DNA of 64,000 nt from Siphonodentalium dalli. Its lineage: Eukaryota > Mollusca > Scaphopoda > Gadilida > Siphonodentaliidae. Below are positions 15,225 to 47,465 of the stretch, one piece after another. The stretch spans positions 173,484,310-173,548,309 of the forward strand of contig CP136064.1 in assembly GCA_032622095.1 (NCBI GenBank). The letters run 5' to 3'. A model generated the notes under the pieces. It saw nothing but the letters and a program-made list of their open reading frames with translations. It had not been told where the DNA came from and did no database searches. The first letter of the stretch is position 1. The number at the start of each line of letters is the position of its first letter. The position numbers and the translations under genes were made by a program.

Positions 15225-15467
15225 AATGCTCCAGACGGGAGACCAACCACCCACCCACAACAAATAATATAAACACACAATGAAAACATCCGCTAGCACA
15301 TGCGCAATACGAGATCTGATATGATATTTTACTACGAATGCAATGATAACGCCTATACTAGCTATCAGTAGTACAGTTGCAATCAAAATAATACAAACAA
15401 TTACCAGATATATATATTCGTTTAGGCCATGTTTATAGTCACAGTTGGCAGGGGGGTTTTGTGTCAT
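15216..15467 (-). other. Small hydrophobic open frame, doubtful gene
   Basis: An 83-residue frame with a long hydrophobic run (YLVIVCIILIATVLLIASIG) and a second one near the C-terminus, as in a two-pass membrane peptide. It overlaps the repeated flank of the mirror block and starts 18 bases before the array. I do not recognise a family. AT-rich DNA often gives hydrophobic chance frames. Confidence 0.15.
15225..15310. repeat. Left outer flank of mirror block
   Basis: On the minus strand it contains CGGATGTTTTCATT and GGGTGGGTGGTTGGTCTCC, preceded by GCGCATG. The same words in the same order stand on the plus strand at about 47,318-47,390. The match therefore lies in inverted orientation just outside the two satellite arrays. 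Confidence 0.65.
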
Positions 15468-15484
15468 ATATTACATATGTTGAA

Positions 15485-18400
15485 AACTGGTTCACTTGGG
15501 ATCTATAATTATGACTTGGGCACATATAACTTATTAGAACCGATTTTGGGCTCAGGGTAGCCTAAGGCAACTATATGTTTTTTTTTAAATATTAAAATTA
15601 GTATCATTCATTTAACTCCAATTTGGGCACTGTACATAACCTATTCCATCACTGTTAGGTATCTACTTCCAGCACTTTTGTTGTTTGTGGATAGGTATGC
15701 ATCTATGCAAATAGTTTGCACAAAGTTTGGGCTCCTCGGTGGGTTTTAAGGGTATGGAGACAGCCCAACACCCACAGCACCCATGATAAAACCATACAGC
15801 ACCCGTGCCTATGAAAACATATTTCTGAGTCAGCCATCTCTCAGACTATACCCATTCTGAAAATGATTCCACATTTCACTTTAGAATATATAGAGGCAAT
15901 GGGAAAAGATGATTTGGGCACCTGAATGGCATTTTGGGCTCTGGTCAGGGGGGAATATATTTTTTTTTTTAATGGTTAAATTGGTATATTTAACTGGAAT
16001 TGGGTCCTGTGACCCATTATAGGTATATACTTCTAGGTCTCCTAGTGTTTTTGGAAAGATCTGCATCATTATAAGAAGATATGCAAAGGTTTGGGCTCCT
16101 TAGTGGGTTTTAAGGGTATGGAGACAGCCCAACACCCACAGCACCCATGACAATTCAAGTTAAATTGGTATATTTAACTTGAATTGGGCCATATGACCCA
16201 TTATATGTATCTACTTCCAGAACTTTTGTTGTTTGTGGATAGGTATGCATCTATGCAAATAGTTTGCACAAAGTTTGGGCTCTTCGGTGGGTTTTAAGGG
16301 TATGGAAACAGCCCAACACCCACAGCACCCATGATAAAACCATACAGCACCCGTGCCTATGAAAACATATTTCTGAGTCAGCCATCTCTCAGACTATACC
16401 CATTCTGAAAATGATTCCACATTTCACTTTAGAATATATAGAGGCAATGGGAAAAGATGATTTGGGCACCTGAATGGCATTTTGGGCTCTGGTCAGGGGG
16501 GAATATTTGTTTTTTTTAATGGTTAAATTGGTATATTTAACTGGAATTGGGTCCTGTGACCAATTATATGTATATACTTCTAGGTCTCCTAGTGTTTTTG
16601 GAAAGATCTGCATCATTATAAGAAGATATGCTAAAAGTTTGGGCTCCTTAGTGGGTTTTAAGGGTATGGAGACAGCCCAACACCCACAGCACCCATGACA
16701 ATTCAAGTTAAATTGGTATATTTAACTTGAATTGGGCCATATGACCCATTATATGTATCTACTTCCAGCACTTTTGTTGTTTGTGGATAGGTATGCATCT
16801 ATGCAAATAGTTTGCACAAAGTTTGGGCTCTTCGGTGGGTTTTAAGGGTATGGAAACAGCCCAACACCCACAGCACCCATGATAAAACCATACAGCACCC
16901 GTGCCTATGAAAACATATTTCTGAGTCAGCCATCTCTCAGACTATACCCATTCTGAAAATGATTCCACATTTCACTTTAGAATATATAGAGGCAATGGGA
17001 AAAGATGATTTGGGCACCTGAATGGCATTTTGGGCTCTGGTCAGGGGGGAATATTTGTTTTTTTTTAATGGTTAAATTGGTATATTTAACTGGAATTGGG
17101 TCCTGTGACCCATTATAGGTATATACTTCTAGGTCTCCTAGTGTTTTTGGAAAGATCTGCATCATTATAAGAAGATATGCAAAAGTTTGGGCTCCTTAGT
17201 GGGTTTTAAGGGTATGGAGACAGCCCAGCACCCATGACAATTCAAGTTAAATTGGTATATTTAACTTGAATTGGGCCATATGACCCATTATATGTATCTA
17301 CTTCCAGCACTTTTGTTGTTTGTGGATAGGTATGCATCTATGCAAATAGTTTGCACAAAGTTTGGGCTCCTCGGTGGGTTTTAAGGGTATGGAAACAGCC
17401 CAACACCCACAGCACCCATGATAAAACCATACAGCACCCGTGCCTATGAAAACATATTTCTGAGTCAGCCATCTCTCAGACTATACCCATTCTGAAAATG
17501 ATTCCACATTTCACTTTAGAATATATAGAGGCAATGGGAAAAGATGATTTGGGCACCTGAATGGCATTTTGGGCTCTGGTCAGGGGGGAATATTTGGGTT
17601 TTTTAATGGTTAAATTGGTATATTTAACTGGAATTGGGTCCTGTGACCAATTATATGTATATACTTCTAGGTCTCCTAGTGTTTTTGGAAAGATCTGCAT
17701 CATTATAAGAAGATATGCAAAAGTTTGGGCTCCTTAGTGGGTTTTAAGGGTATGGAGACAGCCCAACACCCACAGCACCCATGACAATTCAAGTTAAATT
17801 GATATATTTAACTTGAATTGGGCCATATGACCCATTATATGTATCTACTTCCAGCACTTTTGTTGTTTGTGGATAGGTATGCATCTATGCAAATAGTTTG
17901 CACAAAGTTTGGGCTCCTCGGTGGGTTTTAAGGGTATGGAAACAGCCCAACACCCACAGCACCCATGATAAAACCATACAGCACCCGTGCCTATGAAAAC
18001 ATATTTCTGAGTCAGCCATCTCTCAGACTATACCCATTCTGAAAATGATTCCACATTTCACTTTAGAATATATAGAGGCAATGGGAAAAGATGATTTGGG
18101 CACCTGAATGGCATTTTGGGCTCTGGTCAGGGGGGAATATTTGTTTTTTTAATGGTTAAATTGGTATATTTAACTGGAATTGGGTCCTGTGACCCATTAT
18201 AGGTATATACTTCTAGGTCTCCTAGTGTTTTTGGAAAGATCTGCATCATTATAAGAAGATATGCAAAAGTTTGGGCTCCTTAGTGGGTTTTAAGGGTATG
18301 GAGACAGCCCAACACCCACAGCACCCATGACAATTCAAGTTAAATTGGTATATTTAACTTGAATTGGGTCATATGACCCATTATAGGTATCTATTTCCAG

Positions 18401-20335
18401 CACTTTTATAGTTTTTGGATAGGTATGCAACTATGCATCTATGCAAATGGTTTGCACAAAGTTTGGGCTCCACGGTGGGTTTTAAAGTTATGGAGACAGC
18501 CCAACACACACAGCTCCCATGAAAAAAAACCATACAGCACCCGTGCCTATGAAAACATATTTCTGAATCGGTGATCTCTCAGACTATACCCATTCTGAAA
18601 ATTACTCTACAGTTGACTTTTAGAATATATATAGGCAATGAGAAAAAAAATTATTTGAGCATATGAATGGGATTTTGGGCTTTGGTCAGGGGGGGGGGGG
18701 ATATTTGGGTATTTTAAAAGTTAAATTGGTATATTTAACGTGAATTGTGACCCATTATAGATTTCTACTTCCTGTACTTTTAGTGTTTCATCTGTATAAG
18801 AATATGTGCAAAAGTTTTGGCTCCTCAGTGGGTTTTTAGGAGATGGTGACAGCCCAACACCCACGGCACCCATGATGAAACCATACAGCGGCTATGAAAA
18901 CATATTTCTGGGTCAGTGTTCTCTCAGACTATACCTATTCTGAAAATTAATCCAGTTTACTTCAGAATATATGTAGGCAATGGTAAAAAAATTCTTTGGG
19001 CACCTGAATGGTATTTTGGGCTCTGGTCAGGGGGAGGGGAATATTTGGGTTTTTTAATAGTTAAGTTGGTATATTTAACTTGAATTGTGACCCATTATAG
19101 ATATCAACTTCCAGTACTTTTAGTGTTTTTGGAAATATATTCATCTGTTTAAGAAGATGTGCAAAAGTTTGGGCTCCTCAGTGGGTTTTAAGGGTGTGGT
19201 GACAGCCCAACACCCACGGCACCCATGATGAAACCATACAGCACCCGTGCCTATAAAAAAAAAATTCTGGGTCTCAAACTATGCCCATTCTGAAAATGAT
19301 ATATTTTGGCACCTGGAAGTTATTTTGGGCTCTGGTCAAGGGGAGTGGAATATTAGGAATTTTAATAGTCAAGTTGGTATATTTAACTTATATTGTGCCA
19401 TTATTGATATCTACATCCAGGGCTTTTAGTGTTATTGAATAGGTAAGCACCTATGTAAATGATTTCCCGTATTGGATTTAAGAGTATGGAGCCAGCCCAA
19501 CACCCACAGCACCAATGGTAAACCATACAGCATCTGTGCCTATAGAATCATATTTTGGGGTCAGTGTTCAATCAGACAACACTCATTTATGAAACATGAT
19601 TCCACATATGACTTTAGAGTATAGGCAGGCGATCAACAGAAAATATTTTGTTACCTGGAAGGGAATTTGGGCGAGGGGAGAGGAATATTTGTGTTTTTAA
19701 TAGCCATATTGGTATTTTAGGCTTAGGAATCAGTCCAACACCCATACCACCCATGATAAAACATATGGCACTGGTACCTATAAAATAATATTTTGGGGTC
19801 AGTGTTATCTCAGACACCGAAAAAAATATTATTTGGGCACCTGGAAGGGATTTTGGGCTGAGGGGGAGGTGAATATTTGTGTTTAATAGTCAAATGGATA
19901 ATTTTAACTTGAATTGGGCCCAGTAACCCATTTAATGTTTGTGCACGTTGAAGGGATTTTGGGCTCAGGTGAGGTGAATATTTGTGTTTAAAGTCGATTG
20001 GGTATTTTTTAAGTTGAATTGGGCCCAGTACCCATTAATTTGTTAATGGATAGATCTGCATCTGCATAAAATATTTACTGAAGTTTGAGCTCCTGGTTGG
20101 GATTGAAGGGCACGGAGCTGGCCCAACACCTGCAGCACCCATGATAAATTCCAATGGACCATGCAACACCTGTGATTATGAAATCATATTTTGGGGTCAG
20201 TCTCAGACTCTACTCATTCTGAAAATGATTCCACATTTGACTTTAGAATAGAGGCAGGCACTGAACAAAACAATTTGGCCACATGAAAGGGATTTTGGTC
20301 TCAGTGGGGAGGTGAATATTTGTTTGTTCATGGTC
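15485..20335 (+). repeat. Left satellite-like array, about 547-bp unit
   Basis: Landmark GATAGGTATGCATC recurs at about 15,691, 16,239, 16,787, 17,326, 17,873 and 18,419, spacing 539-548. Each unit has a long (about 360 bp) and a short (about 185 bp) module, both carrying AGTTTGGGCTCC and GACAGCCCAACACCCACAGC. Units alternate between GTGACCCATTATAGG and GTGACCAATTATATG variants, so the operating repeat is a dimer of about 1.09 kb. From 18,450 to 20,335 the copies become progressively diverged, shortened and irregular. The outer first copy (15,485-15,690) is also diverged. Short frames inside are repeat translations, not genes. Confidence 0.95.
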
Positions 20336-21596
20336 TAATTGGTATTATTAAATTGCATTTGATGAGCGAAATAAGCTCATATCAATATAGGCTCTGTGTG
20401 GAGATAAACGTCCAATATGGGACCATGATTTCCATACAAATAAGCACGCAACGGTCTTATTTTAATGAGCGAAATAAGTCCCTATTGGTATTATTTAATC
20501 ACAATATACGCTCTATATGGACTTAAAATTCAGTTTTTAAAACAGTCGAATATGGGACTATCTCCGGACGCAAAAAGCCCATATTGGTATTATTAAATCT
20601 ACCGTTTTTGATCGTAACATATCCTCACAAAAATAGGTTCATAGTGGAAATAAATATCAACATATGATTCAATAGACTTATTTGATTCAGAAATAAGCCC
20701 ACAGTGAGCTTATAGCCATTACGCCATTGATTCGCGAGGGTCGCATATATAAAACATAAAGAGTGTGCATCTGATATTGGTCATGTCGATGAAAAAAGCT
20801 AGATTAATAATAATATGGGTTTATTTCGTACGAAAATAGTCCCATATTGGACTGTTTAAAAAAACCGCGTTTTAGGTCCATATATAAAGCTTATATTAAA
20901 TAACGCCAATATGAGCTTATTTCGCACATTAAAATAAAACCGTTATGTGCTTATTTTCACGAGGATGAAATGTACATGGAAAGTCTTGTGTTGGTTTATT
21001 CGTGTTATTTTTCAGCCTGTTCTTGAGAAAATAAGCCCATAATCTGATTCTGAAATAAGCACATATTAAGCTTAAACCCTTATTCCGTTGATTGGCGCGA
21101 GCCACAGTGAGAACACCGTACAAAGAGCGTAGCTTTGGTAAGTCGTGTTGATGGAAAAAGGTTAGATTAAATAATGCCAATATGGGCTTATTTCGTATGT
21201 AAATAGTCCCATATTGTACTGTTTTAAACAGCCTGTTCCAAAAAAAAACGGGCACATTATCTGCTTATAATAAATATTTTTTAGGTAGATAATCTGCTTA
21301 GAATCGCCTCATTTTGAGTCGATAATGTGCTAAAAATGAGAGCATAGTCACATTATCGACTGACAATGAGTCGATTGTAAACAGATTGTGTGCGGAAAAT
21401 GACACAAATAAGCCAACTTACGACTTTCAAGTGTAAGCTCTTTAACATGTGTTTTCAATGTGGCCCGCGCCATAGAACCAGATAACGATATGATCTATTA
21501 TCTGCTTATTTTACAATTAAATAATCATATTATGTACTTATTTCACATTATGGGCCGATTATGTGCGTATTTGCGCGAGGATATGTTGTGACACGA
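20336..21596. repeat. R field, left end: AATAAGC self-complementary modules
   Basis: Modules are built of TTATTTTAATGAGCGAAATA, AAGCTCATATTGG, AACAGTCCAATATGGGAC and their complements, so each roughly 800-bp block folds on itself. 20,345-20,590 is the inverted counterpart of 37,000-37,240 over about 240 bases, including a rare CTCTGTGTGGAGATAAACGT word, which defines the outer ends of the field. From 21,240 a sister module (R2) begins, marked by AGGTAGATAATCTGCTTAG and CGAGGATATGTTG. Confidence 0.85.
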
Positions 21597-24500
21597 GCTC
21601 CATGAATTCCGTTCCCAGTTCCCAGTTCCCTATTCTCCTAAAATTGCACTTTTCGTTTACTAAATCGGCTGCGTAGCCAGAGTCATGGAGACCACCCGGG
21701 AATCCTTGTATTTTCGTGCGGTGCCACACAGCGGGGATCTATATGAAAGGGACGCGACCATGCAGCCCCTTCCAAATTTTCGAAAATTGGGCTGAATTCG
21801 TGCATGGGGTGTCAAAATAGCACTTTTCGTTACTAAATCGGCTGCGTAGCCAGAGTCATGGTGTCCACCCGGAAATCCTTGTATTTTTGTGCGGTGCCAC
21901 CCAGCGGGCATCTATAGAAAAGGGACGCGACCATGCAGCCCCTTCCAAATTTTCGAAAATCGGACTGAAGGCGTGCATGGGGTGTCAAAATAGCACTTTT
22001 CGTCACTAAATCGGCTGCGTAGCCAGAACCATGGCGGCCACCCGGGAATCCTTGCATTTTCGTGCGGTGCCACCCAGCGGGCATCTATTGGACAGGGACG
22101 CGGCCATCTAGCCCCTTCCAATTTTTCGAAAATTGGGCTGAAGTCGTGCATGTAGCTAAACATAGCACGCTTTGTTACTAAATCGGCTGCGTAGCCAGAA
22201 CCATGGCGGCTACCCGGGAATTCTTTCATTTTCGTGCGGTGCCACCCAGCGGGCATCTTTATGACAGGGACGCGGCCATATAGCCTCTTCCAATTTTTTG
22301 AAAATTGGGCTGAAGTCGTGCATGGAGTTAATTTTTTTAACTTTTTGTTACTAAATCAGCTGCGTAGACAGAACCATGGCGGCCACTCGGGAATCCTTGT
22401 ATTTTCGTGCGGTGCCACCCAGTAGACATCTATTGGACAGGGACGAGACCGTATAGGCCTTTTCAATTTTTCGAAAATTGGGTTGAAGTCGTGCATGGAG
22501 CTCCAAATCGCACTTTTCGTTGCTAAATCGCCCGCGTAGGCATAACCGTAGCAGACACGTGGCTATCCTTGCGGGATCTTCTTGTGCCACCACTATTACA
22601 TCTAAAAATCACAAACTAGGTCACATAAACTTGTCCAAAATAGGACATTTTTCGTTAGTCGATAATGTACTGAAAAGGAGACCCTATTACTCACATTATC
22701 GACTCATATAGAGGCGATTCTAAGCAGATTATGTGCGAACAATGACAAGAAATAAGCCAACCCACTACTGTTCAGCTGTACGCTCATTAACATGTGTTTT
22801 CACTGTGGCTCGCGACTTAACACAAAATTATGACTATGACTCCATTATCTGCTTATTTCAGAATCAAATAATCACTTTATGTACCTAATTGGAATTATAG
22901 GTCGAATATGTGCGTATTTGTGCGAGGATATGTTGCTAAATCGCCTGCGTTGGCATAACCATAGCAGCCACTGGGCTATCCTTGTGGATTCTTCTTTGCC
23001 CACCACTAGTCCATCTATAAATCACAAACTGGTTCACATATGCCTGTCCAGCTGTTAATAAATTGGGTGTAAGTCGTGCATCGGATGAAAATAATGAAAA
23101 ACATGTCATTTTTCGTTGCAAATCGTCTGCGTAGGCATATCCATAGCAGCCACGGGGCTCTCGTTGTGGATTCTTCTTATGCCACCACTAGTCCATCGAT
23201 AGATCACAAACTGGTTCACATACGCCTGTCCAGCTGTTCAAAAATTGGGCGTAAGTCGTGCGTGGGGTCAAAATAATGAAACAAAGTTCATTTTTCGTTG
23301 CTAAATCGCCTGCATAGGCATAACCATAGCAGTCACGAGACTATCCGTGTGGATTTTTCTTCTGCCACCACCAGTCCATCTAGAAATCACAAATCAATTA
23401 ACATGCTCCCGTCCAGCTGTTCACAAATTGAGCGTAAGTCGTGCGTGGGGTTAAAATAATGAAAAAAAATTAATTTTTCGTTGCTAAATCGCCTGCGTAG
23501 GCATAACCATAGACGCTACGGGGCTATCCTTGTGGATTCTTCTTGTGCCGCTACAAGTCCATCTAGAAATCACAAAATATGTCATATAAACTTGTCCAGC
23601 TGTTCAACAGTTGGGCGTAAATCGTGCGTGGGGTAAAAATATGACATTTTTCGTTGCTTAATCCTGAAAACCAGCACATTATTTGCTGAGAAGAAACAAT
23701 AATTTAGGTAGATAATCTGCTTAGAATCGCCTCATTTTGAGTCGACAATGTGCTGAAAATGAGTTCCTATTAGTCATATTATCGACTCATATAGAAGCGA
23801 TTCTAAGTAAATTATGTGCTGACAATGACAAAAATAATAACCAAACTTTTCAGGTGTACGCTCATTAGCATGTATTTTCACTGTGGCACGCGCCAAAACA
23901 CGAAATGACGACTATGACTCCATTATCTGCTTATTTCATAACCAAATAATCACTTTAAGTACCTAATTAAAATTTAGGTCGGTTTTGTGCGTATTCGTGC
24001 GAGGATATGTTACTAAATCGCCTGCGTTGGCATAACCATAGCAGCCACGGGGCTACCCTTGTGGATTCTTCTTATACCACAATTAGTCCATCTATAAATC
24101 ACAAACTAGTTCACATACGCCTGTCCAGCTGTTCAAAAATTGGGCGTAAGTCGTGCGTGGGGTCAAAATAATGAAAAAAGAGATATTTTTCGTTGCTAAA
24201 TCGCCTGCGTAGGCATACACATAGCAGCCACGAGGGTATCCTTGTGGATGCTTCTTATGCCACCACTAGTCCATCTAAAAATCACAAACATAGTCACATA
24301 AGCCTGTCCAGTTGTTCAAAAATCGGGCGTAAGTCGTGCGTGGGGTCAAAATAATGAAAAAAATCATTTCTCATTGCTAAATCGCCTGCGTAGGCATAAC
24401 CGTAGCTGCCACGAGTCTATCCTTTTGGAATCTTCTTGTGCCACCAATAGTGCATCGAAACATCACAAACTAGGTCCCATAAAATGCAAGGAATTCCAGG

Positions 24501-25283
24501 GTGGCCGCCATGGTTCTGGCTACGCAGCCGATTTAGCAACAAAAAAATGCAATTTTTAGCTCCATGCATGCACGACTTCAGCCCAATTTTCAAAAAAGTG
24601 GAAGGGCTATATGGCCGCGTCCCTGTCCTATAGATGCGCGCTGGGTGGCACCGCACAAAAATACAAGGATTCCCGGGTGGTCGCCATGGTTCTGGCTACG
24701 CAGCCGATTTAGTAACAAAAAGTGCGATTTTGAGCTCCATGCACGACTTTAGCCCAATCTTCGAAACATTGGAAGGGGCTATATGGTCGCGTCCCTGTCC
24801 TATAGATGACAACTGGGTGGCACCGCACGAAAATACAAGGATTCCCGTGTGGCCATCATGACTGTCTACGCAGCCGATTTAGTAACTAAAAGTGCTATTT
24901 TGACACCCCATGTACGACTTCAGCCCGATTTTAGAAAATTTGGAAGGGGCTGCATGGTCGCGTCCCTTTCCTATAGATCCCCGCTGGGTGGCACCGCACG
25001 AAACTACAAGGATTCCCGGGTGGCCACCATGACTCTGGCTACGCAGCCGATTTAGTAACGAAAAGTGCTATATTGACACCCCATGCACGACTTCAGCCCG
25101 ATTTTCGAAAATTTGGAAGGGGCTGCATGGTCGCGTCCCTTTCCTATAGATGCCAGCTGGGTGGCACCGCACGAAAATACAAGGATTCCCGGGTGGCCAC
25201 CATGACTCTGGCTACGCATCCGATTTAGTAACGAAAGGTGCAATTTTAGGGGAACTGGGAACTGGGAACGGAATTCATGGAGC
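21597..25283. mobile_element. 3.7-kb foldback element with tandem-repeat arms
   Basis: Ends GCTCCATGAATTCCGTTCCC and its complement are flanked by TTGTGACACGA (21,586-21,596) and TTGTGACAGGA (25,284-25,294), an 11-bp target duplication with one mismatch. The left arm holds five roughly 173-bp units (GGCTGCGTAGCCAGA..., GTGCGGTGCCACCCAGCGGG). The right arm (about 24,485-25,240) holds five of the same in reverse. Between them are diverged units (GCTAAATCGCCTGCGTAGGC) and two copies of the R2 module (22,640-22,935; 23,655-24,010). No transposase is present. A 9-11-bp duplication fits Mutator-like or Drosophila FB-like foldback elements; the superfamily is an inference. Confidence 0.8.
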
Positions 25284-25294
25284 TTGTGACAGGA

Positions 25295-26375
25295 CATATC
25301 ACGCTCTTTACTTGCGCCAGTCTATGCTGGGCGCAAGCAATGTTTTCGGTCAGGATCTCTGTTTATCTGTTTATTTGTCTGTCCTTCCACGAATATGTTA
25401 CGTCATACCGGAAGTACAGAATGTAAAGAATGCACATGCGCTAATATGAAATGATGGCACCAATTGTAATTTAAATCCACATTTATACTAAATTTGCATT
25501 GTTATCTCGTTTTATTTTGGTAATAAATCGTTCATAAAAGAACAAAATTGAAAGATTGCTTTCTTTGAAACTCGGAAAATTATTTGAGATCGAGTCTAAA
25601 AGATGCGTGCGGAATCGTTTTTTTTTTCTCGCATAGAAAATGATGTGCGAACAAATTTCTGGAAACTTTCTTCGACGTTCAAAACATTTCCGAAAGACGC
25701 AGGTGCATATAAACCATGTCCGGCCAAACGATCGAGCGCATGGTTCTAGACAAAATTGTACTGAAAAATATGTTGAAACATGGATTATTAAAGCGCCTTA
25801 TTAATTAACTGGGAAAACAAGCTTTCTCATTCTCAAAGCAATTGGCATTTTGATGATATGTTCCCGAAGACCGTAGATCAGTCGCTATAAGGGCATGTTC
25901 ACATTGACACATTGATAATCAAAGACTAACCAATGATCGCGTGTCTTTTATTTAATTGTGTCGGAATTGACTTTGACGTTTTTTGCCGCTGAAGTGCAAT
26001 GACATACACAAAGCATTCTAGTCAAACTAGTAATGTAACCCAATTGGTATATACTATATAGCATCAGCGGCAACCAATCGTATTCACACCCTTCATATGA
26101 GCGATGTCTATATTGTTCTATAAATATGTCAAACAACTCTTACGTCATTACTAAGACCATAATTAGTGTAATAGATCAACTGGAGATAACAGAGATATTC
26201 TGTCCGTACACACAAATATTTCAGCGATGGATGAACTGAAATTTGATATCTAGATTCTCTATCGATCTCTCAAAAGAGGGCCCAGCACCCGTGGTTCAAA
26301 CTGCTGTTGGCAAGATATCACAAAACATGCCATACTGAATGTGTGATGGGTGCATTCTAGTGCAAATGTGTTTTA
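25295..26375. other. Non-repetitive 1.06-kb segment inside the R field
   Basis: R sequence breaks off after CACGCTCTTTA at about 25,311 and resumes at about 26,360 with ATGTGTTTTACTACGG, matching the uninterrupted R2 copy at 36,315-36,400. The segment between shares nothing with the rest of the window, begins with a small hairpin (CTTGCGCC...GGGCGCAAG) and has no coding frame I recognise. It is an insertion of unknown nature. Confidence 0.55.
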
Positions 26376-28849: not shown

Positions 28850-29198
28850 CATACAACTACATGTATTTGAATCTAATCTGGATTCATCGAGCAGGTCGCT
28901 GTCACAATGTCAACAATTAGTCACATCCATGTCCCCAAGTCACGGTATTAATGACTTCTTCGATAACTCAATACAGAAACAAATATTTAATGATAATATT
29001 CGCACCAAACTTCTCAAAAATAGCAATCGACGTGATCATCCAAGGAACAAACTTAGAACGTATAGAACATTCAAAACGATGACTTCTTTGGAAATATATA
29101 TCAACGTCATTTCCGTCCCAAAATAGCGTGAATCCCTGACAAAATTAAGAATAAGTTGCCACACCTTGGGCATCGAACGCGGACGCTACTTCGATTTC
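28850..29198 (+). pseudogene. LINE fragment, C-terminal coding part
   Basis: Translates to NKLRTYRTFKTMTSLEIYIN, one in-frame stop, then LTKLRISCHTLGIERGRY, which is the conserved stretch before the C-terminal knuckle of many LINE ORF2 proteins. The 5' part of the element is missing, as is normal for 5'-truncated insertions. Coding continues at 31,722 beyond the foldback insertion. Confidence 0.75.
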
Positions 29199-29233
29199 TA
29201 CGGCGGCCTGGAACCGCCACCCCCTCTTCAGTT

Positions 29234-29600
29234 AGTATCCTGATATATCAGGTTACGTATCCTGATATATCAGGTTAGTATCCTGATATATCAGGCTATT
29301 ATCCTGATATATCAGGTTATGTATCCTGATATACTAGATTAGTATCCTGATATATCAGGTTATTATCCTGATATATCAGGTTACGTATCCTGATATATCA
29401 GGTTACGTGTCCTGATATATCAGGTTATTATCCTGATATATCAGGTTACGTATCCTAATATATCAGGTTATTATCCTGATATACCAGGTTACGTATCCTG
29501 ATATATCAGGTTACGTATCCTGATATATCAGGTTATTATCCTGATATATCAGGTTATGTATCCTGATATATCAGGTTATGTATCCTGATATATCAGGTTG
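29234..29600. repeat. CCTGATATATCAGG minisatellite, left arm
   Basis: About 18 units of 19-22 bases, each holding the perfect 14-base palindrome CCTGATATATCAGG with a short spacer (TTACGTAT or TTATTAT). One or two units carry point changes. Confidence 0.95.
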
Positions 29601-29639
29601 TCTCGACCAATCCAGAATGTCGTCTTTCATTGGCGGAGG

Positions 29640-31283: not shown

Positions 31284-31340
31284 AATCCAACCAACCACAA
31301 GCCTCCGCCAATGAGACGACACTCTGGATTGGTCGAGACA

Positions 31341-31685: not shown

Positions 31686-31721
31686 TAACTGAAGAGGAGG
31701 TGGCGGTTCCAGGCCGCCGTA

Positions 31722-36512: not shown

Positions 36513-36517
36513 TTTAA

Positions 36518-36995
36518 AGGTACTCAATCCGTAAAAAGGGTCCCCATCTCAACAGATTCCAACAACAACAATCCGATCAGAGGGTCCTATATTACTATTT
36601 CTTTGGCTTTGGGGGTAAAAAACATTTGATTCGAGTCGAGGAACCCATCAAACAAAGCTCAGAGTTATTAGATATTGATTTTTGAAATTTGTTAATTGCT
36701 CGAGATGAGTACTAATAACTGCCGTCAATTTGGTAACCTGCTCGAGATTTTACGCCAAAACTCTATTCAAACAGACAAGGATGGATAACTCTATAATCAA
36801 GTGGTAATAATAACGAAATTTTGACTGTCTTCTGGGCCAGAAAGAATTCCCGATAATGAAAAATAATAGATTTCTAAAATCGATATCTAACAAATCTGAG
36901 CTTTGATGGGTGACTTCCTCGACTCGAATCAAATATTTTTGACCACCGAACCCATTGAAATAGTATTTGATAGGAGTTTTATCGGATTGAGTACC
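36518..36995. mobile_element. TTAAAGG-type MITE, copy 1
   Basis: Ends AGGTACTCAATCCG and complement, flanked by TTAA (or TTTAA) on both sides. The interrupted R word (GTAGATTTAA, then TAATAATG) rejoins across it, proving the insertion. Length 478 bp, non-coding. The ends resemble the TTAAAGG termini of T2-type MITEs known from Xenopus; that link is by motif only. Confidence 0.8.
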
Positions 36996-37000
36996 TTTAA

Positions 37001-37265
37001 TAATGACAATATGGGAGATAGTCCCATATTGGACTGTTTTATAAACTGAGTTTTAGGTCCATATAGAGCGTATATTGTGATTAAATAATACCAATAGGGG
37101 CTTATATCGCTCATTAAAATAAGACCGTTACGTGCTTATTTTTATGGAAACCATACATGTACTCCCATAGTGTACGTTTATCTCCACACAGAGCCTATAT
37201 TGATATGAGCTTATTTCGCTCATTAAAATAAGCCGGGAGTGTGGCTATTTTCACGAGAACAGGCT
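37001..37265. repeat. R field, right end
   Basis: Inverted counterpart of 20,345-20,590, including the same ATAGGCTCTGTGTGGAGATA word on the minus strand. Ends at GAGAACAGGCTGTGAAG. Confidence 0.8.
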
Positions 37266-37664
37266 GTGAAGTAGCATATACATGTACTATACATTCCTTT
37301 TTCATATACATATGTTGTACTTCCGTATATATTCATATTAAAATATTCTTCATATTTCATACAGAATACTATATCATTATGTCCATGCAGTGTATCACAA
37401 CTACAATTTACCATATCTTATCCTAATTTAATTAAAGGTTTAAACCAAAACATAGTTCGTACTTTAATTGGGTCGGGTTGTTCCGGGTCGCTTGGTGTCG
37501 GTTGTGCCCGGGGCGGATGGTCCCGTTCCTGTATATACAACTATATACATGTGTATATAGTACATCTGACTACAGACCGAATCGGGACCACAGGGACAAC
37601 TCGCGCGGGCGTATGTTAGGGTGGGTTGTCCAGATTTTCCGGGGCTGGTTGTCTCACGTTTTTA
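37266..37664. other. No gene recognised
   Basis: Includes a locally GC-rich patch (37,465-37,660) with GGGTCG / CCCGGG words and a short TATATAC palindromic stretch. Nothing coding recognised. Confidence 0.45.
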
Positions 37665-38945
37665 TTAGCTCGTCTCAGGTGGAGCTATTGTCATCACTCT
37701 TCGTCCGTCGTCCGTCCATCGTCCGTCCGTCCGTCCATCCGTCCGTCTACAATTCTTTGAACATCTTCTCCTCTGGAACCATGAAACCGAATGGGTTCAT
37801 ATTTGGTGTGTATGTTTCCTAGGTGACTCTCATTCAGATTTGTTCAAATGAGGACACTGGGTCAAATGGTTGCGAAGCCAGGGCCATAACTCTTTGCCAC
37901 CATAGTAATTCTTACAACGACTTCTCAAATTTCATTGGGCCGAATGGGTTCGTATTTGATACAAAGGGTCCTTGGGGGACTGTTATTCAGATTTGTTCAA
38001 ATGAGGTCACTGGATCGAATGTGGGCTCAATTTAACAAACAAAAAAATTAGTTTTTAAACATTTTATCAAATTTGAAAAAAGTGACACCATTATAACATC
38101 TGCAGAGTTATGAAACTTTAATCTTTAATGAAATTACAGAAATATTCCATTACCCATCCCCCATCCCATATGGCCCAGACCCACCCCACCCTGCAGTGGC
38201 CTGCACCCAACCAACATCCCTTCCAACGGATATCATCTCCAGCTTCCAACTTTAATACCTGTTCTATTAAAGTTGCAGATATATCTTTGTGGATAGACAG
38301 AGAGAGACACATGTCATTAATCTAGATTACAATAAAATGTCACCTGGCAGCTTGTGTAAACATTACTGCTAGCAATTTTAAACAAACTGCCTGAATTTAG
38401 TGTCTGACATTTGCATAATGAGGTCCCCAGAGGGTCAATTTAGTGTTGCAACCCTGTACAGCAGGCTAGCATCACCAAATACACCCTCCATGGACTTAAT
38501 TCTGCTTAGGCATCATCTTCTGGGAAGTATCTTAAGTATCAAATTGAAATTTTGTTTTAGTTACTTTTTTACTTTTTCCCTTCTGTTCAGTTTCTATGCC
38601 CCCCCCCCAATTTGCAGAAGATAAAATGCATAATTGAGGTGCTCAATGGGTGTGCATTACAAACTTCAACTTTAGAACTTAAATCTGTTCCTATATAGGT
38701 TTCCCATGGCTGGTGAGGCCTAATCAGACTGAGGATGAATCTGGTGATGCTAGCACACCTTGCGGAATATTGTCATTAAATTCACCATTTGGGGACCTCA
38801 TTCTGCAAATGTCTGACACACTATATGCAGACATGGCTGGCATATTATTTTCTTAACCACCGCTTATCCAGATGAAATCATACCCTGATTTTTCAAAGAA
38901 ACATTGGGGGGGGGGGGTATATTGGATTGAATTTGTCTTATGTCT
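37665..38945 (+). repeat. Composite (GTCC)n-anchored repeat E, copy 1
   Basis: Order: GTGGAGCTATTGTCATCACT, a (GTCC)n tract, modules with GAATGGGTTCATATTTGGT and GGCCATAACTCTTT, a CATCTGCAGAGTT stretch with CCCACCCC words, and an inner inverted-repeat unit (about 38,395-38,835) whose ends read TGTCTGACATTTGCA / GAGGTCCCCAGAGG. The last part includes ATCCAGATGAAATCATACCC. The same order is found on the minus strand at 55,560-54,175. Non-coding; I do not know its superfamily. Confidence 0.75.
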
Positions 38946-39470
38946 GTCAGGCGGTCCTTCCACTCGTCTGTCTGTTGGGATGTCTATCCATCCGTCTATC
39001 AACAATTGTTTTCTTCTCCATATTAAAGACCAAATATGTTCATATATTTCAGTATGCATGTTCCCTAGGTGACTCACAATAAGATTTGTTCAAATAAGTT
39101 CATCATATCAAATAGGTGCGAAGCTAGGGCCATAACTCTTTCCCTCCATAGTAAATCTTAAAATTTCTTCTCAAGAACCATTGAGCCTATATTAGCTTAT
39201 ATTTGGTATGGATGGGCCTTGGGTGACCGGGTTCAGATTTGTTCAAATTGGGTCATTTTAGGAAATGAGGTCCCCATATGGTGAATTCGTTGATGCTTTT
39301 CCACGTTGTGGAATAGTGTCATTAAATTCACATTTTGTGGACCTCATTCTGCAAAGATCAGACATACTAAATACAGACTTGGCTGTTCCAATATTATTTT
39401 CTTAACCACGTACCACTTATCCAGGTGAAATCATACCCTATTGGATATTGGGGGTATATTGATATTACTA
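38946..39470 (+). repeat. Composite repeat E, shorter copy 2
   Basis: Starts again with a GTCTGTC/CCATCC tract and GGCCATAACTCTTTCC modules, then a shortened inner unit (GAGGTCCCC at 39,262; GGACCTCATTCTGCA at 39,337) and the CATACCCTATTGG end. It follows copy 1 head to tail. Confidence 0.7.
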
Positions 39471-39764
39471 GATGAATGGATCTCATAGATGGGGATTCAC
39501 ATTTGTTCTAATAGGGGCAGAGATAAGAGATTTAACTCTCCTATATCCTTGTACTAGTTGTAAAATTCAACCTAAGAGGGGTGTGCAAAATGATTTCTGT
39601 GAACTTAGTACTGTGGTATGGTTGTCTTCTGTAAAATGTAAGAGGTTGGAGATTTGTCAGTGGTGTGCAATTAGAAATTTCAAGTTGAAGAGCCCTGCTC
39701 ATCGGAGAACCTCCATCTATGTCCATGTTTAGAACTACTTGTCTTAAGTGATATTGTCACGTAC
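39471..39764. other. No gene recognised
   Basis: An 86-codon plus-strand frame has six or more cysteines in pairs, but no known zinc motif spacing and no supporting context. Treated as chance. Confidence 0.4.
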
Positions 39765-40030
39765 GGACTCTTGTAGTCTTCAGAGTCCCATTCTTCTCAG
39801 TCTTTACAGTCTGGTGAGCGACCCACAGTCATTGACTGTCTTGTTAAATATTTGTTGTCATCTTCACATTTTTTGTTTATTTATTCTTGGAAATGTAATT
39901 TTCATATTTTAAGACACTACTGTATTACACGATTTGAGATCCCAATATATTATTATCTTAAATTATTTGCCATCGTTTTGTCGACGTAATCGGTAGTATA
40001 CGGATGGCGACGAGGTCGGTATTTGAGATT
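39765..40030 (+). mobile_element. Possible solo LTR remnant (Ty3/gypsy-like), weak
   Basis: A TGTCACGTAC start, a T-rich middle and a GGCGACGAGG word just after the supposed end recall LTR plus primer-site context of Ty3/gypsy elements. No second LTR and no coding part are present. A fossil if real; age cannot be judged. Confidence 0.15.
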
Positions 40031-40032
40031 GG

Positions 40033-40190
40033 ACACCTGAGAACTATCTGAATATGAACACCAAGTAACAGTCTGTTTATGTGAAACTGAGCTTATTTTA
40101 AAATTGCGCGAAATAAGCTCATGTTGGCAATATTTGAAAACTTAAATAAGCTCTATATGGGCCTAAACGAATAGCGTACAGGAAGGTAAC
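40033..40190. repeat. R field remnant beside the right array
   Basis: Contains GAAATAAGCTCATGTTGG and TATATGGGCCTAAACG, R words seen at 28,300 and 35,370. It shows that the R field once continued to the right array and that 37,266-40,030 was inserted later. Confidence 0.6.
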
Positions 40191-40254
40191 ACCCTGATTG
40201 TATAGATTACCCAGGGTATCCCCCCTGAGTGTATAGAATACCCCGGTTTACATG

Positions 40255-43200
40255 GCCCAATTCAAGTTAAATATACCGACATTAATATTAAAAAACATAT
40301 TTTGTCCTTCACCTGAGCCCAAATATGATTTTAAAGACAAGGGTGCTGTATGATTTATCATGGGTGCTGTTGGTGTTGTGCCAGTCTCAGTAAACTTAGC
40401 GTACATTTGCTCCCATAGTTGCGCACGGTACGAGCGCGACTAGCAATTGTACTTCGAAATTCATTACGACTGGTGTTGTGCCACCTGCTCACCATTAAAT
40501 CACTCCCAGGTGCCCAAACTTTTGCAAACCTTCTTATACTGATGCACATCTTTCCAAAAACACTACTAGTAAGAGACATAGAAGTAGATACCTATAATGG
40601 GTCACAGGGCTCAATTCAATTTGACCATTAAAAAAACCCAAATATTCCCCTCCCCCTGACCAAAGCCCAAAATCCCATTCAGATGCCCAAATAATTTTTT
40701 CCCATTGCCTCTATATATTCTAAAGTGAACTGTGGAATCCTTTTCAGAATGGGTATAGTCTGAGAGATGGCTGACTCAGAAATGTTTTCATAGGCACGGG
40801 TGCTGTATGGTTTTATCATGGTTGTTGTGGGTGTTGGGCAGTCTCCATACCCTTAAAACCCACCGAGGAGCCCAAACTTTGCGCAAACTATTTGCATAGA
40901 TGCATACCTATCCACAAACAACAAAAGTGTTGAAAGTAGATACATATAATGGGTCATATGGCCCAATTCAAGTTAAATATACCAATTTCACTTGAATTGT
41001 CATGGGTGCTGTGGGTGTTGGGCTGTCTCCATACCCTTAAAACCCACCAAGGAGCCCAAACTTTTGCAAATCTTCTTATACTGATGCAGATATTTCCAAA
41101 AACACTAGGAGACCTAGAAGTATATACCTTTACAGGACCCAATTCCAGTTAAATATACCAATTTAACCATTAAAAAAACCAAATATCCCCCCTGAATAGA
41201 GCCCAAAATCCCATTCAGGTGCCCAAATATTTTTTTCCCATTGCCTCTATATATTCTAGAGTGTAATGTGGAATCATTTACAGAATGGGTATAGTCTGAG
41301 AGATGGCTGACTCAGAAATATGTTTTCATAGGCACGGGTGCTGTATGGTTTTATCATGGGTGCTGTGGGTGTTGGGCTGTCTCAATACCCTTAAAACCCA
41401 CTGAGGAGCCCAAACTTTGTGCAAACCATTTGCATAGATGCATACCTATCCACAAACAACAAAAGTGTTGGAAGTATATACATATAATGGGTCATATGGC
41501 CCAATTCAAGTTAAATATACCAATTTAACTTGAATTGTCATGGGTGCTGTGGGTGTTGGGCTGTCTCCATACCCTTGAAACCCACTAAGGAGCCCAAACT
41601 TTTGCAAATCTTCTTATACTGATGCAGATATTTCCAAAATCACTAGGAGACCTAGAAGTATATACCTTTACAGGTCCCAATTCCAGTTAAATATACCAAT
41701 TTAACCATTAAAAAAACCAAATATCCCCCCTGAATAGAGCCCAAAATCCCATTCAGGTGCCCAAATATTTTTTCCCCATTGCCTCTATATATTCTAGAGT
41801 GAAATGTGGAATCATTTACAGAATGGGTATAGTCTGAGAGATGGCTGACTCAGAAATATGTTTTCATAGGCACGGGTGCTGTATGGTTTTATCATGGGTG
41901 CTGTGGGTGTTGGGCTGTCTCAATACCCTTAAAACCCACTGAGGAGCCCAAAGTTTGTGCAAACCATTTGCATAGATGCATACCTATCCACAAACAACAA
42001 AAGTGTTGGAAGTAGATACATATAATTGGTCATATGGCCCAATTCATGTTAAATATACCAATTTAACTTGAATTGTCATGGGTGCTGTGGGTGTTGGGCT
42101 GTCTCCATACCCTTAAAACCCACTAAGGAGCCCAAACTTTTGCAAATCTTCTTATCCTGATGCAGATATTTCCAAAAACACTAGGAGACCTAGAAGTATA
42201 TACCTTTACAGGACCCAATTCCAGTTAAATATACCAATTTAACCATTAAAAAAACCAAATATCCCCCCTGAATAGAGCCCAAAATCCCATTCAGGTGCCC
42301 AAATATTTTTTTCCCATTGCCTCTATATATTCTAGAGTGAAATGTGGAATCATTTACAGAATGGGTATAGTCTGAGAGATGGCTGACTCAGAAATATGTT
42401 TTCATAGGCACGGGTGCTGTATGGTTTTATCATGGGTGCTGTGGGTGTTGGGCTGTCTCAATACCCTTAAAACCCACTGAGGAGCCCAAACTTTGTGCAA
42501 CCATTTGCATAGATGCATACCTATCCACAAACAACAAAAGTGTTGGAAGTAGATACATATAATGGGTCATATGGCCCAATTCAAGTTAAATATACCAATT
42601 TAACTTGAATTGTCATGGGTGCTGTGGGTGTTGGGCTGTCTCCATACCCTTAAAACCCACTAAGGAGCCCAAACTTTTGCAAATCTTCTTATACTGATGC
42701 AGATATTTCCAAAATCACTAGGAGACCTAGAAGTATATACCTTTACAGGACCCAATTCCAGTTAAATATACCAATTTAACCATTAACAAAACCAAATATC
42801 CCCCCTGAATAGAGCCCAAAATGCCATTCAGGTGCCCAAATATTTTTTTCCCATTGCCTCTATATATTCTAGAGTGAAATGTGGAATCATTTACAGAATG
42901 GGTATAGTCTGAGAGATGGCTGACTCAGAAATATGTTTTCATAGGCACGGGTGCTGTATGGTTTTATCATGGGTGCTGTGGGTGTTGGGCTGTCTCAATA
43001 CCCTTAAAACCCACTGAGGAGCCCAAACTTTGTGCAAACCATTTGCATAGATGCATACCTATCCACAAACAACAAAAGTGTTGGAAGTAGATACATATAA
43101 TTGGTCATATGGCCCAATTCATGTTAAATATACCAATTTAACTTGAATTGTCATGGGTGCTGTGGGTGTTGGGCTGTCTCCATACCCTTAAAACCCACTA

Positions 43201-46200
43201 AGGAGCCCAAACTTTTGCAAATCTTCTTATACTGATGCAGATATTTCCAAAAACACTAGGAGACCTAGAAGTATATACCTTTACAGGACCCAATTCCAGT
43301 TAAATATACCAATTTAACCATTAAAAAAAACAAATATCCCCCCTGAATAGAGCCCAAAATCCCATTCAGGTGCCCAAATATTTTTTTCCCATTGCCTCTA
43401 TATATTCTAGAGTGTAATGTGGAATCATTTACAGAATGGGTATAGTCTGAGAGATGGCTGACTCAGAAATATGTTTTCATAGGCACGGGTGCTGTATGGT
43501 TTTATCATGGGTGCTGTGGGTGTTGGGCTGTCTCAATACCCTTAAAACCCACTGAGGAGCCCAAACTTTGTGCAAACCATTTGCATAGATGCATACCTAT
43601 CCACAAACAACAAAAGTGTTGGAAGTAGATACATATAATGGGTCATATGGCCCAATTCAAGTTAAATATACCAATTTAACTTGAATTGTCATGGGTGCTG
43701 TGGGTGTTGGGCTGTCTCCATACCCTTAAAACCCACTAAGGAGCCCAAACTTTTGCAAATCTTCTTATACTGATGCAGATATTTCCAAAATCACTAGGAG
43801 ACCTAGAAGTATATACCTTTACAGGACCCAATTCCAGTTAAATATACCAATTTAACCATTAAAAAAACAAAATATCCCCCCTGAATAGAGCCCAAAATCC
43901 CATTCAGGTGCCCAAATATTTTTTTCCCATTGCCTCTATATATTCTAGAGTGAAATGTGGAATCATTTACAGAATGGGTATAGTCTGAGAGATGGCTGAC
44001 TCAGAAATATGTTTTCATAGGCACGGGTGCTGTATGGTTTTATCATGGGTGCTGTGGGTGTTGGGCTGTCTCAATACCCTTAAAACCCACTGAGGAGCCC
44101 AAACTTTGTGCAACCATTTGCATAGATGCATACCTATCCACAAACAACAAAAGTGTTGGAAGTAGATACATATAATGGGTCATATGGCCCAATTCAAGTT
44201 AAATATACCAATTTAACTTGAATTGTCATGGGTGCTGTGGGTGTTGGGCTGTCTCTATACCCTTAAAACCCACTAAGGAGCCCAAACTTTTGCAAATCTT
44301 CTTATACTGATGCAGATATTTCCAAAATCACTAGGAGACCTAGAAGTATATACCTTTACAGGACCCAATTCCAGTTAAATATACCAATTTAACCATTAAC
44401 AAAACCAAATATCCCCCTGAATAGAGCCCAAAATGCCATTCAGGTGCCCAAATATTTTTTTCCCATTGCCTCTATATATTCTAGAGTGAAATGTGGAATC
44501 ATTTACAGAATGGGTATAGTCTGAGAGATGGTTGACTCAGAAATATGTTTTCATAGGCACGGGTGCTGTATGGTTTTATCATGGGTGCTGTGGGTGTTGG
44601 GCTGTCTCAATACCCTTAAAACCCACTGAGGAGCCCAAACTTTGTGCAAACCATTTGCATAGATGCATACCTATCCACAAACAACAAAAGTGTTGGAAGT
44701 AGATACATATAATGGGTCATATGGCCCAATTCAAGTTAAATATACCAATTTAACTTGAATTGTCATGGGTGCTGTGGGTGTTGGGCTGTCTCCATACCCC
44801 TAAAACCCACTAAGGAGCCCAAACTTTTGCAAATCTTCTTATACTGATGCAGATATTTCCAAAATCACTAGGAGACCTAGAAGTATATACCTTTACAGGT
44901 CCCAATTCCAGTTAAATATACCAATTTAACCATTAAAAAAACCAAATATCCCCCCTGAATAGAGCCCAAAATCCCATTCAGGTGCCCAAATATTTTTTCC
45001 CCATTGCCTCTATATATTCTAGAGTGAAATGTGGAATCATTTACAGAATGGGTATAGTCTGAGAGATGGCTGACTCAGAAATATGTTTTCATAGGCACGG
45101 GTGCTGTATGGTTTTATCATGGGTGCTGTGGGTGTTGGGCTGTCTCAATACCCTTAAAACCCACTGAGGAGCCCAAACTTTGTGCAAACCATTTGCATAG
45201 ATGCATACCTATCCACAAACAACAAAAGTGTTGGAAGTAGATACATATAATGGGTCATATGGCCCAATTCAAGTTAAATATACCAATTTAACTTGAATTG
45301 TCATGGGTGCTGTGGGTGTTGGGCTGTCTCCATACCCTTAAAACCCACTAAGGAGCCCAAACTTTTGCAAATCTTCTTATACTGATGCAGATATTTCCAA
45401 AATCACTAGGAGACCTAGAAGTATATACCTTTACAGGACCCAATTCCAGTTAAATATACCAATTTAACCATTAAAAAAACCAAATATCCCCCCTGAATAG
45501 AGCCCAAAATCCCATTCAGGTGCCCAAATATTTTTTCCCATTGCCTCTATATATTCTAGAGTGAAATGTGGAATCATTTACAGAATGGGTATAGTCTGAG
45601 AGATGGCTGACTCAGAAATATGTTTTCATAGGCACGGGTGCTGTATGGTTTTATCATGGGTGCTGTGGGTGTTGGGCTGTCTCAATACCCTTAAAACCCA
45701 CTGAGGAGCCCAAACTTTGTGCAACCATTTGCATAGATGCATACCTATCCACAAACAACAAAAGTGTTGGAAGTAGATACATATAATGGGTCATATGTCC
45801 CAATTCAAGTTAAATATACCAATTTAACTTGAATTGTCATGGGTGCTGTGGGTGTTGGGCTGTCTCCATACCCTTAAAACCCACTAAGGAGCCCAAACTT
45901 TTGCAAATCTTCTTATACTGATGCAGATATTTCCAAAATCACTAGGAGACCTAGAAGTATATACCTTTACAGGACCCAATTCCAGTTAAATATACCAATT
46001 TAACCATTAAAAAAACCAAATATCCCCCCTGAATAGAGCCCAAAATCCCATTCAGGTGCCCAAATATTTTTTTCCCATTGCCTCTATATATTCTAGAGTG
46101 AACTGTGGAATCATTTACAGAATGGGTATAGTCTGAGAGATGGTTGACTCAGAAATGTGTTTTCATAGGCACGGGTGCTGTATGGTTTTATCATGGGTGC

Positions 46201-47035
46201 TGTGGGTGTTGGGCTGTCTCAATACCCTTAAAACCCACTGAGGAGCCCAAACTTTGTGCAAACCATTTGCATAGATGCATACCTATCCACAAACAACAAA
46301 GGTGTTGGAAGTAGATACATATAATGGGTCATATGGCCCAATTCAATTTAAATATACCAATTTAACTTGAATTGTCATGGGTGCTGTGGGTGTTGGGCTG
46401 TCTCCATACCCCTAAAACCCACTAAGGAGCCCAAACTTTTGCAAATCTTCTTATACTGATGCAGATATTTCCAAAATCACTAGGAGACCTAGAAGTATAT
46501 ACCTTTACAGGTCCCAATTCCAGTTAAATATACCAATTTAACCATTAAAAAAACCAAATATCCCCCCTGAATAGAGCCCAAAATCCCATTCAGGTGCCCA
46601 AATATTTTTTCCCCATTGCCTCTATATATTCTAGAGTGAAATGTGGAATCATTTACAGAATGGGTATAGTCTGAGAGATGGCTGACTCAGAAATATGTTT
46701 TCATAGGCACGGGTGCTGTATGGTTTTATCATGGGTGCTGTGGGTGTTGGGCTGTCTCAATACCCTTAAAACCCACTGAGGAGCCCAAACTTTGTGCAAA
46801 CCATTTGCATAGATGCATACCTATCCACAAACAACAAAAGTGTTGGAAGTAGATACATATAATTGGTCATATGGCCCAATTCATGTTAAATATACCAATT
46901 TAACTTGAATTGTCATGGGTGCTGTGGGTGTTGGGCTGTCTCCATACCCTTAAAACCCACTAAGGAGCCCAAACTTTGTGCAAACTATTTGTATATAGAT
47001 GCATACCTATCCACAAACAACAACAACAACAGTGT
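40255..47035 (-). repeat. Right satellite-like array, about 538-bp unit, 12 regular copies
   Basis: Reverse complement of the 15,485-20,335 array. Landmark TGCATACCTATCC recurs from 40,901 to 46,814 every 536-538 bases. The same long plus short module structure is present (355 + 184). Every regular unit has CTTTACAGG where the left array has the 8-base-longer ATAATGGGTCACAGG; only the innermost copy (about 40,595-40,610) keeps the long form. Variants such as TGCAACCATTTG (42,497; 44,108; 45,720) and ACAGGTCCCAATTCC (41,664; 44,897; 46,510) recur every three units, so the operating repeat is a trimer of about 1.61 kb. The last copy is cut short at 47,035. Confidence 0.95.
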
Positions 47036-47317
47036 CTATAGTATAGTATTTGAGGAGCATTGCCATTATGGAATTTATTCTGTCATTTGTCAACTATTTA
47101 CAGCTTATTTTTTTATATAAATAACTAAACACCTTATGAGATGTCTGGAAAATAATGATATATTATTGTGACCCATTATAGGTATATAACTGTAAGGAAA
47201 CACAGATTTATAAAACTTTAGTCATGTTATCTGAGAGATAGATGTCTTTGTTAGCTATTCTGGTCATTACTGTATACTGATATTCTGAAATTACGATCTT
47301 GCGCCGTTGCGCATGCC

Positions 47318-47465
47318 CGCCCGGATGTTTACATTATTAGCATTGTTTGTATACAATCGGTTTGTTATGGGTGGGTGGTTGGTCTCCGAGCTCGAGCTTT
47401 ATGTCTCTCCAATGTTACCCTCGAGGGTAATATGGTGATTTATCGCCCGCCATGTGACGCACTCT
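47318..47465 (+). repeat. Right outer flank of mirror block
   Basis: Carries GCGCATG, CGGATGTTTACATT and GGGTGGGTGGTTGGTCTCC in the same order as the minus strand of 15,225-15,310. It is followed by ACCCTCGAGGGT and GATTTATCGCCCGC, which resemble an arm of the palindrome at 14,221-14,331. It supports inverted flanks outside the arrays. Confidence 0.55.

Follow-up and report, generated by a model that had tools for sequence, protein, structure and literature searches.

In the genome of the scaphopod mollusc Siphonodentalium dalli, we found that a mirror-like block of about 32 kb is, with high confidence, a single member of a family of giant, non-autonomous DNA transposons that has foldback architecture and was active recently. 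The block lies in a stretch of 64,000 nucleotides that was analyzed as a whole (the window; C4:173,484,310-173,548,309, contig CP136064.1), in a genome of 2.23 Gb (2,227 Mb) assembled in nine contigs. Direct observations include fixed ends, 8-bp target site duplications (TSDs), copies at many loci that are nearly identical, inverted arrays that differ in length from copy to copy, and insertions strongly biased toward one site. An earlier note, made from the letters of the window, had proposed a single giant foldback-type element, with an ancient inverted duplication as the alternative, and had suggested that a mobile element would be supported if the block recurred at other loci with the same sharp outer ends and with target duplications. 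Such recurrence was found, and it supports the first proposal.

Ends, copies and target site duplications

Both limits of the element are common to many loci. Seven other loci lose similarity to the left flank at window position 15,213-15,216, and 30 right-end loci (that of the window included) reach ...TTTATGTCTCTC and then diverge from copy to copy, several of them sharing the recurrent target repeat described below. These common boundaries define the element as 15,216-47,409, close to, but not exactly, the 15,225 and 47,465 given in the earlier note. The left terminus begins CTAATAGGG and the right one finishes ...GTCTCTC. The terminal inverted repeat (TIR) is about 49 bp long and imperfect, with an inner core, GGAGACCAACCACCCACCCAYAACAAA, located exactly 22 bp inside each terminus. 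A 9-bp duplication at the window copy was considered and rejected, since other copies show that the ninth base (C) is the first base of the element.

The whole genome was searched with 22-mers of the left and right ends (up to 2 mismatches). The left one occurred 138 times and the right one 130 times, with 0 and 1 occurrences for the respective reversed-pattern controls. A 28-mer of the TIR core matched 221 times (up to 3 mismatches). The known ends suffice to account for this number, so no abundant second family has a closely similar core. The flank match, which might have been a common short repeat, is thus the terminus of the element. For pairing we took 100 left and 100 right ends and joined those found in the expected orientation within 300 kb. 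As many as 81 of the 100 left ends paired with a right end in a consistent orientation, leaving 19 left and 19 right ends of the set unpaired. One pair spans 1,758 bp (the shortest copy, 1.76 kb, at C5:167,227,838-167,229,595), 75 range from 24.6 to 81.5 kb and five from 95 to 211 kb, with a median of 41,851 bp over the 81 pairs; the bulk of the family is ca. 30-70 kb in length. Together the paired intervals make up 4.15 Mb, or 3.54 Mb excluding those of >100 kb.

TSDs were compared in 27 copies with both flanks, a non-random sample made up mostly of top-scoring matches, and an exact, adjacent 8-bp duplication was present in 21 of them. As a control, each left flank was also set against the right flanks of the other copies. 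Outside the recurrent target, the two sides of the same copy were identical in 10 of 15 cases and those of different copies in 2 of 210, both of which correspond to a reciprocal exchange (see below); with the recurrent target included, 20 of 702 comparisons between copies gave a match. The same ends are found on all nine contigs and exact 8-bp duplications on eight, while the single C3 copy tested agrees at 7 of 8 positions. The mirror architecture and the diverged arms (92% identity) would also suit an ancient inverted duplication at a single locus, immobile and enlarged by array growth. However, the ends recur on nine contigs, and near-identical copies at other sites, each with its own 8-bp duplications, exclude a single event of this kind, to which we assign a negligible probability.

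Four other copies (28.5, 26.1, 71.8 and 41.9 kb), tiled out of fetched stretches, were compared with the window copy over their full length, so that this comparison and the survey of open reading frames (ORFs) cover five of the 81 paired copies. All four are largely collinear with the window copy. Relative to its interior (20,345-40,250), we counted 94 substitutions in 19,862 positions, 120 in 19,869, 90 in 16,196 and 158 in 19,580 (0.47-0.81%), which indicates that the spread was recent. The 71.8-kb copy differs mainly by its longer arrays and does not have ca. 3.7 kb of the middle, and in the 41.9-kb copy there are small gaps, with ca. 1 kb locally duplicated near 37,540-38,560.

The internal modules travel with the ends. 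For the core stretch (25,300-26,420), 34 of the 40 best genome matches fall inside paired elements, and 2 of the 6 outside have an unpaired end close by. For the R field (diverged repeats rich in AATAAGC; probe 27,000-28,200) the equivalent values are 33 of 40 and 5 of 7, and all eight scored loci of the satellite array are inside paired elements, which cover just 4.15 of the 2,227 Mb. Independent occurrence of array and R field across the genome had been put forward as evidence that would count against one element; for near-identical copies, the best matches are instead mostly inside paired elements. It should be noted that the first-look candidates numbered 2,003 (core) and 4,256 (R field), most of them unscored, and older or weaker relatives of both may exist elsewhere in the genome. 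Even so, that arrays and R fields are independent repeats clustered by chance, with ends that are just a common short repeat, seems to us very improbable.

Mirror structure and variation in size

The features of the window copy are the following.

15208..15215 (+): left 8-bp target duplication CAATGTTA, from flank comparison
15216..47409 (+): whole transposon copy, 32,194 bp, no ORF above 147 amino acids; from the ends common to the loci compared, pairing and ORFs
15216..15264 (+): left TIR, ca. 49 bp; outer 22 bp a poor match to the right end, inner 27 bp 26/27 identical to it
15265..15484 (+): left subterminal non-tandem stretch; 40 scored copies, 97-100% identity
15485..20335 (+): left satellite array, higher-order period ca. 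538/548 bp, inner part more diverged
20345..21580 (+): R field, left end
21580..25300 (no strand): local inverted module, from self-BLAST and tandem repeats
21,640-22,547 and, inverted, 24,481-25,247: 173-bp tandem blocks within the local inverted module
22,932-23,641 and 24,009-24,482: 183-bp tandem blocks, enclosed by the 173-bp blocks
25300..26420 (+): core stretch used as probe; best 40 matches 99-100%
26420..29184 (+): R field, central part
29231..29599 (+): 22-bp minisatellite, unit core palindromic (CCTGATATATCAGG)
30325..30833 (+): 174-bp tandem block
31341..31689 (-): inverted partner of the 22-bp minisatellite
32290..37266 (no strand): R field, right part; its end, 37,014-37,227, mirrors 20,358-20,565 at 91.6%
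37267..40254 (no strand): spacer, no mirror partner found; present in all four other full copies
40255..47035 (-): right satellite array, period 538 bp, orientation opposite to that of the left array
47036..47360 (+): right subterminal non-tandem stretch
47361..47409 (-): right TIR, ending ...TTTATGTCTCTC; its 22-mer found 130 times in the genome
47410..47417 (+): right 8-bp target duplication CAATGTTA

Self-BLAST of the window confirmed that the block is made of inverted layers, with the center of symmetry of the whole element at 31,312. Among the four layers of the earlier note, the outer flank (15,238-15,264 versus 47,387-47,361, 26/27 bp), the arrays and the ends of the R field do match in inverted orientation. 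In the arrays, 15,659-18,875 aligns to 44,169-41,000, together with registers shifted by ca. 538 bp (92% over 3,240 bp). The ends of the R field (20,358-20,565 versus 37,227-37,014) are 91.6% identical over 214 bp, the top-scoring match of that stretch, in a field whose matches generally occur in both orientations. The fourth layer, the inner modules, stood only in part, as they mirror each other locally and around centers of their own, i.e., ca. 23,440 for 21,580-22,405 versus 25,300-24,481 and ca. 30,460 for 29,184-29,652 versus 31,736-31,289 (both 89%). No inverted partner of 37,270-40,250 appeared among the self-BLAST rows, which extend to query position ca. 29,350. Therefore, the mirror holds for the ends and arrays only and is merely local inside. 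The possibility that array units repeat the TIR core, acting as extra binding sites, was examined and found no support, as 18 and 17 of 200 shuffles attained the alignment scores of 27 and 26.

The core could be located in 52 paired copies, 48 with the normal orientation and 4 with the core inverted relative to the ends. In the 48 normal ones, the span to the left of the core varies from 7.7 to 67.9 kb and that to the right from 12.2 to 109.9 kb (7.7-41.3 and 12.2-34.6 kb when the three pairs of >100 kb are left out). This is consistent with copies that differ in size mainly through the two inverted satellite arrays with a period of ca. 540 bp, as seen directly in the full-length copies compared. 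Ten paired copies cluster at 63.2-65.7 kb, and this size class may be a subfamily with long arrays. Recombination between inverted arms would give the four inverted cores, and so would misassembly. A similar case is that of two opposite copies on C6, one at 159,466,430-159,508,280 (+) flanked by CATCAATG and GCCACGGA and the other at 159,572,359-159,611,518 (-) flanked by GCCACGGA and CATCAATG. These exchanged duplications make the segment a candidate inversion, and a misjoin between two inverted copies of ca. 40 kb would look alike.

We take seriously, while leaning against it, the idea that misassembly of long near-identical repeats, rather than biology, lies behind the four flipped cores, the exchanged duplications and some of the variation in size. 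The long arms and the copies of ca. 40 kb exceed typical accurate reads, and a misjoin inside two inverted copies would produce the same exchange of duplications. On the other hand, the 21 exact duplications amount to matching left and right junctions in most of the copies tested. Two other arrangements were observed. On C2, copies of 41,211 bp (149946886-149988096, +) and 41,212 bp (149995578-150036789, -) face opposite directions 7.5 kb apart, either as a large palindrome or as an assembly duplicate. At locus L027 two right ends meet head to head, the second one being inverted and slightly changed at its tip.

Elsewhere in the window and outside the element, positions 8134-13441 (-) hold an apparently intact non-LTR (long terminal repeat) retrotransposon, with a frame of 1,154 amino acids containing endonuclease (PF03372) and reverse transcriptase (PF00078) domains. 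It is preceded by an ORF1-like frame of 486 amino acids that had no Pfam match above the cut-off. A 40-bp minisatellite of ca. 32 copies, also seen as a period of 198 bp, is located at 1422-2686.

Insertion sites

The duplication falls inside the same 16 bp, GAAAAGTAACTTTTTA, in 11 of the 27 copies, or 12 when a diverged relative is included. This site is the center of an imperfect palindrome within a repeat of ca. 505 bp that resembles a miniature inverted-repeat transposable element (MITE) and has TTAA at both ends along with short terminal inverted repeats (flanks of loci L022 and L017). The site is ca. 313 bp from one end of the repeat and ca. 190 from the other, and the predicted DNA fold of the whole repeat has an energy of -68 kcal/mol, a value with no shuffle control. 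A 29-mer spanning the site has 13,635 genomic matches (up to 3 mismatches), i.e., well under 0.1% of the genome, and with 11 or 12 of 27 insertions there, the preference must be strong. The repeat could host other insertions too, and the copy at C1:257.08 Mb lies inside a relative of it, ca. 180 bp off the recurrent site.

Outside the recurrent target, 7 of 14 TSDs had an A in position 2 together with a T in position 7 (nAnnnnTn; background 9.9%, P = 1.7e-4, for a motif picked after seeing the data). A general preference for hairpin targets was not supported in a test against 950 windows of equal length, in which the 15 sites gave p = 0.070 for folding energy and 0.10 for inverted-repeat score, and 0.14 and 0.20 for the 14 sites left after removing the diverged relative of the recurrent target. 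Comparing 15 empty sites of 56 bases with 836 windows of 64, an inequality that works against detecting such a preference, gave p = 0.52 and 0.27. A weak hairpin preference is possible. The copy in the window is inserted in a further dispersed repeat, its flanks (L009 and L006) matching the right flank of L013 at 96% over 660 and 97 bp, and a perfect 16-bp palindrome, TTACCCTCGAGGGTAA, is found beside its insertion.

These data suggest how the family might move. A transposase encoded elsewhere would recognize both ends, with the TIR core 22 bp inside each, and would excise or copy the whole element and join it to a cut staggered by 8 bp. Copies would lengthen or shorten through unequal exchange or slippage in the two satellite arms, and cores and neighboring chromosome segments would be flipped when inverted arms or copies pair. 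We give about an even chance to the combined proposal of a family that has much of its length in a freely resizing inverted satellite arm and is moved in trans by a transposase homing on one site of a MITE-like repeat.

Coding capacity and comparison with known systems

The longest stop-to-stop frame across the five full copies was 147 amino acids. Pfam gave no match above the cut-off in 10 of the 14 ORFs of at least 90 amino acids in the window element, with only weak matches below it (zf-C2HC5, 17 bits; Rep3_N, 13 bits), and no Rfam family reached the gathering threshold in the window. With no coding capacity in five copies, the family is non-autonomous as far as it was read, which implies a transposase supplied from elsewhere.

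Several observations weigh against the interpretation as a mobile foldback family. The outermost ca. 12 bp of the two ends barely match each other, which is unusual for a TIR transposon. Six of the 27 copies do not have an exact, adjacent 8-bp duplication, among them the copy at C6:80.86 Mb (all 8 bp duplicated, but with two additional bases on its left side), two whose duplications agree at 7 and 6 of 8 positions, and one, with its right end adjoining a second inverted right end, that has no duplication. Beyond the 100 left and 100 right ends listed, a further 38 and 30 make up an unpaired remainder. Four of the 40 core matches had no listed end nearby, three of them in tandem at C8:157.61-157.68 Mb and one at C9:103.25 Mb. 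Array lengths and flipped cores are only as reliable as the assembly, which may contain errors where repeats are long and nearly identical. Finally, none of the transposase domains scored in the genome was inside the 81 paired intervals, whether MULE (0 of 150 scored from 813 candidates, with 0 of 150 also within 20 kb of a listed end), Merlin (0 of 62) or KDZ (0 of 20); these searches included the pairs of >90 kb and were limited to the three superfamilies, hAT, P and others not being searched. The C8 group consists of three core matches in direct orientation, ca. 36-38 kb apart and with no listed ends (C8:157608574-157684309), and is either a segmental duplication or a series of whole elements in tandem.

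The copies without genes could derive from an autonomous giant element that keeps its transposase in a few other copies, e.g., the pairs of 95-211 kb. Five pairs have such sizes, full reading covers 5 of the 81 paired copies, and a 180-kb pair is enlarged on both sides of the core. Nevertheless, we consider this origin unlikely, given the null domain counts in the intervals, those above 90 kb included, and size differences that are consistent with array length where the core was located (directly so in the full copies).

Non-autonomous DNA transposons are usually short, and efficiency is usually thought to fall with length. Here the common form has a median of ca. 42 kb and no genes in the copies read. 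If the combined proposal above is correct, the transposition of 30-80 kb of gene-free DNA would be routine in a eukaryotic genome, satellite arrays would spread across chromosomes and a network of long inverted repeats would rearrange them. The family offers a direct route for the dispersal of satellite DNA and a natural test of transposases on very long substrates. About 80 long inverted-repeat elements could drive inversions, with one candidate marked by exchanged duplications.

Inverted arms of tandem repeats at both ends, discrete insertions with TSDs and a non-coding middle place the family in the foldback structural class. As for superfamilies, Mutator/MULE elements make TSDs of 9 bp (8-11), so the 8 bp found here is at the edge of their range. 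KDZ/Zisupton elements make 8-bp TSDs, and 0 of the 20 KDZ matches in the genome lay in paired intervals. For the P superfamily, to which Galileo belongs, TSDs of 7-8 bp are compatible in length. Elements of the hAT superfamily make 8-bp TSDs of the form nTnnnnAn, which fits 0 of 26 TSDs here. Rolling-circle elements (Helitron/Helentron) make none, unlike this family with its 8-bp duplication, and Polinton/Maverick elements carry polymerase, integrase and capsid-type genes, in contrast to the five copies with no coding capacity. Polinton/Maverick and Teratorn elements do resemble the family in reaching tens of kb. The FB elements of Drosophila share with it long inverted arms of tandem repeats, a variable middle and copies without conserved ORFs. 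The TU elements of sea urchins, foldbacks of a few kb with a tandem outer domain in the arms and an 8-bp TSD, are alike in arms and TSD and far shorter.

Most foldbacks seem to belong to Mutator/MULE (PMC4079207). Merlin elements, with TSDs of 8-9 bp and terminal 5'-GG-3' (PMC8101967), fit in TSD length, but the ends here are CT... and GA..., and 0 of 62 Merlin domains were in paired intervals. For the P superfamily, to which Galileo belongs, TSDs of 7-8 bp are compatible in length. Some oyster Helentrons are also non-autonomous and carry satellite-like arrays (PMC7492417), unlike this family in its 8-bp TSD and inverted arms. The giant coding transposons reviewed in PMC6431247 reach tens of kb as well, but they are large through the genes that they carry, unlike the gene-less copies here. 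No gene-free foldback element of tens of kb was found in the open literature searched by title and start of abstract.

Galileo of Drosophila is foldback-like, with a variable number of tandem repeats inside its arms, and two opposite copies with exchanged TSDs are the mark of inversion by ectopic recombination (PMC2775673, PMC3573991). In these sources it has TIRs of ca. 0.3-1.2 kb, a 7-bp TSD (consensus GTAGTAC) and a known transposase, whereas here the arrays are 4.9 and 6.8 kb in the window and far longer in other copies, the TSD is 8 bp and no transposase was found. Its internal tandem repeats contain extra transposase sites (PMC3573991, PMC3688188), unlike the array units here, which show no sign of repeating the TIR core. 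The best match in architecture and in the lack of genes is Tetris of D. virilis (PMC4079207). Like Tetris, the family combines inverted arms of tandem repeats with a variable middle and copies without conserved ORFs, and the two also share TSDs in the range of 8-10 bp, an autonomous partner that was not found and tandem units linked to satellite DNA (PMC4079207). Three structurally complete copies of Tetris were reported there. Unlike FB and Tetris, however, the family described here has 81 paired copies with a median of 41.9 kb, less than 1% interior divergence in the four compared, a multi-module interior of ca. 20 kb, and 8-bp TSDs with a preferred site inside a MITE-like repeat.

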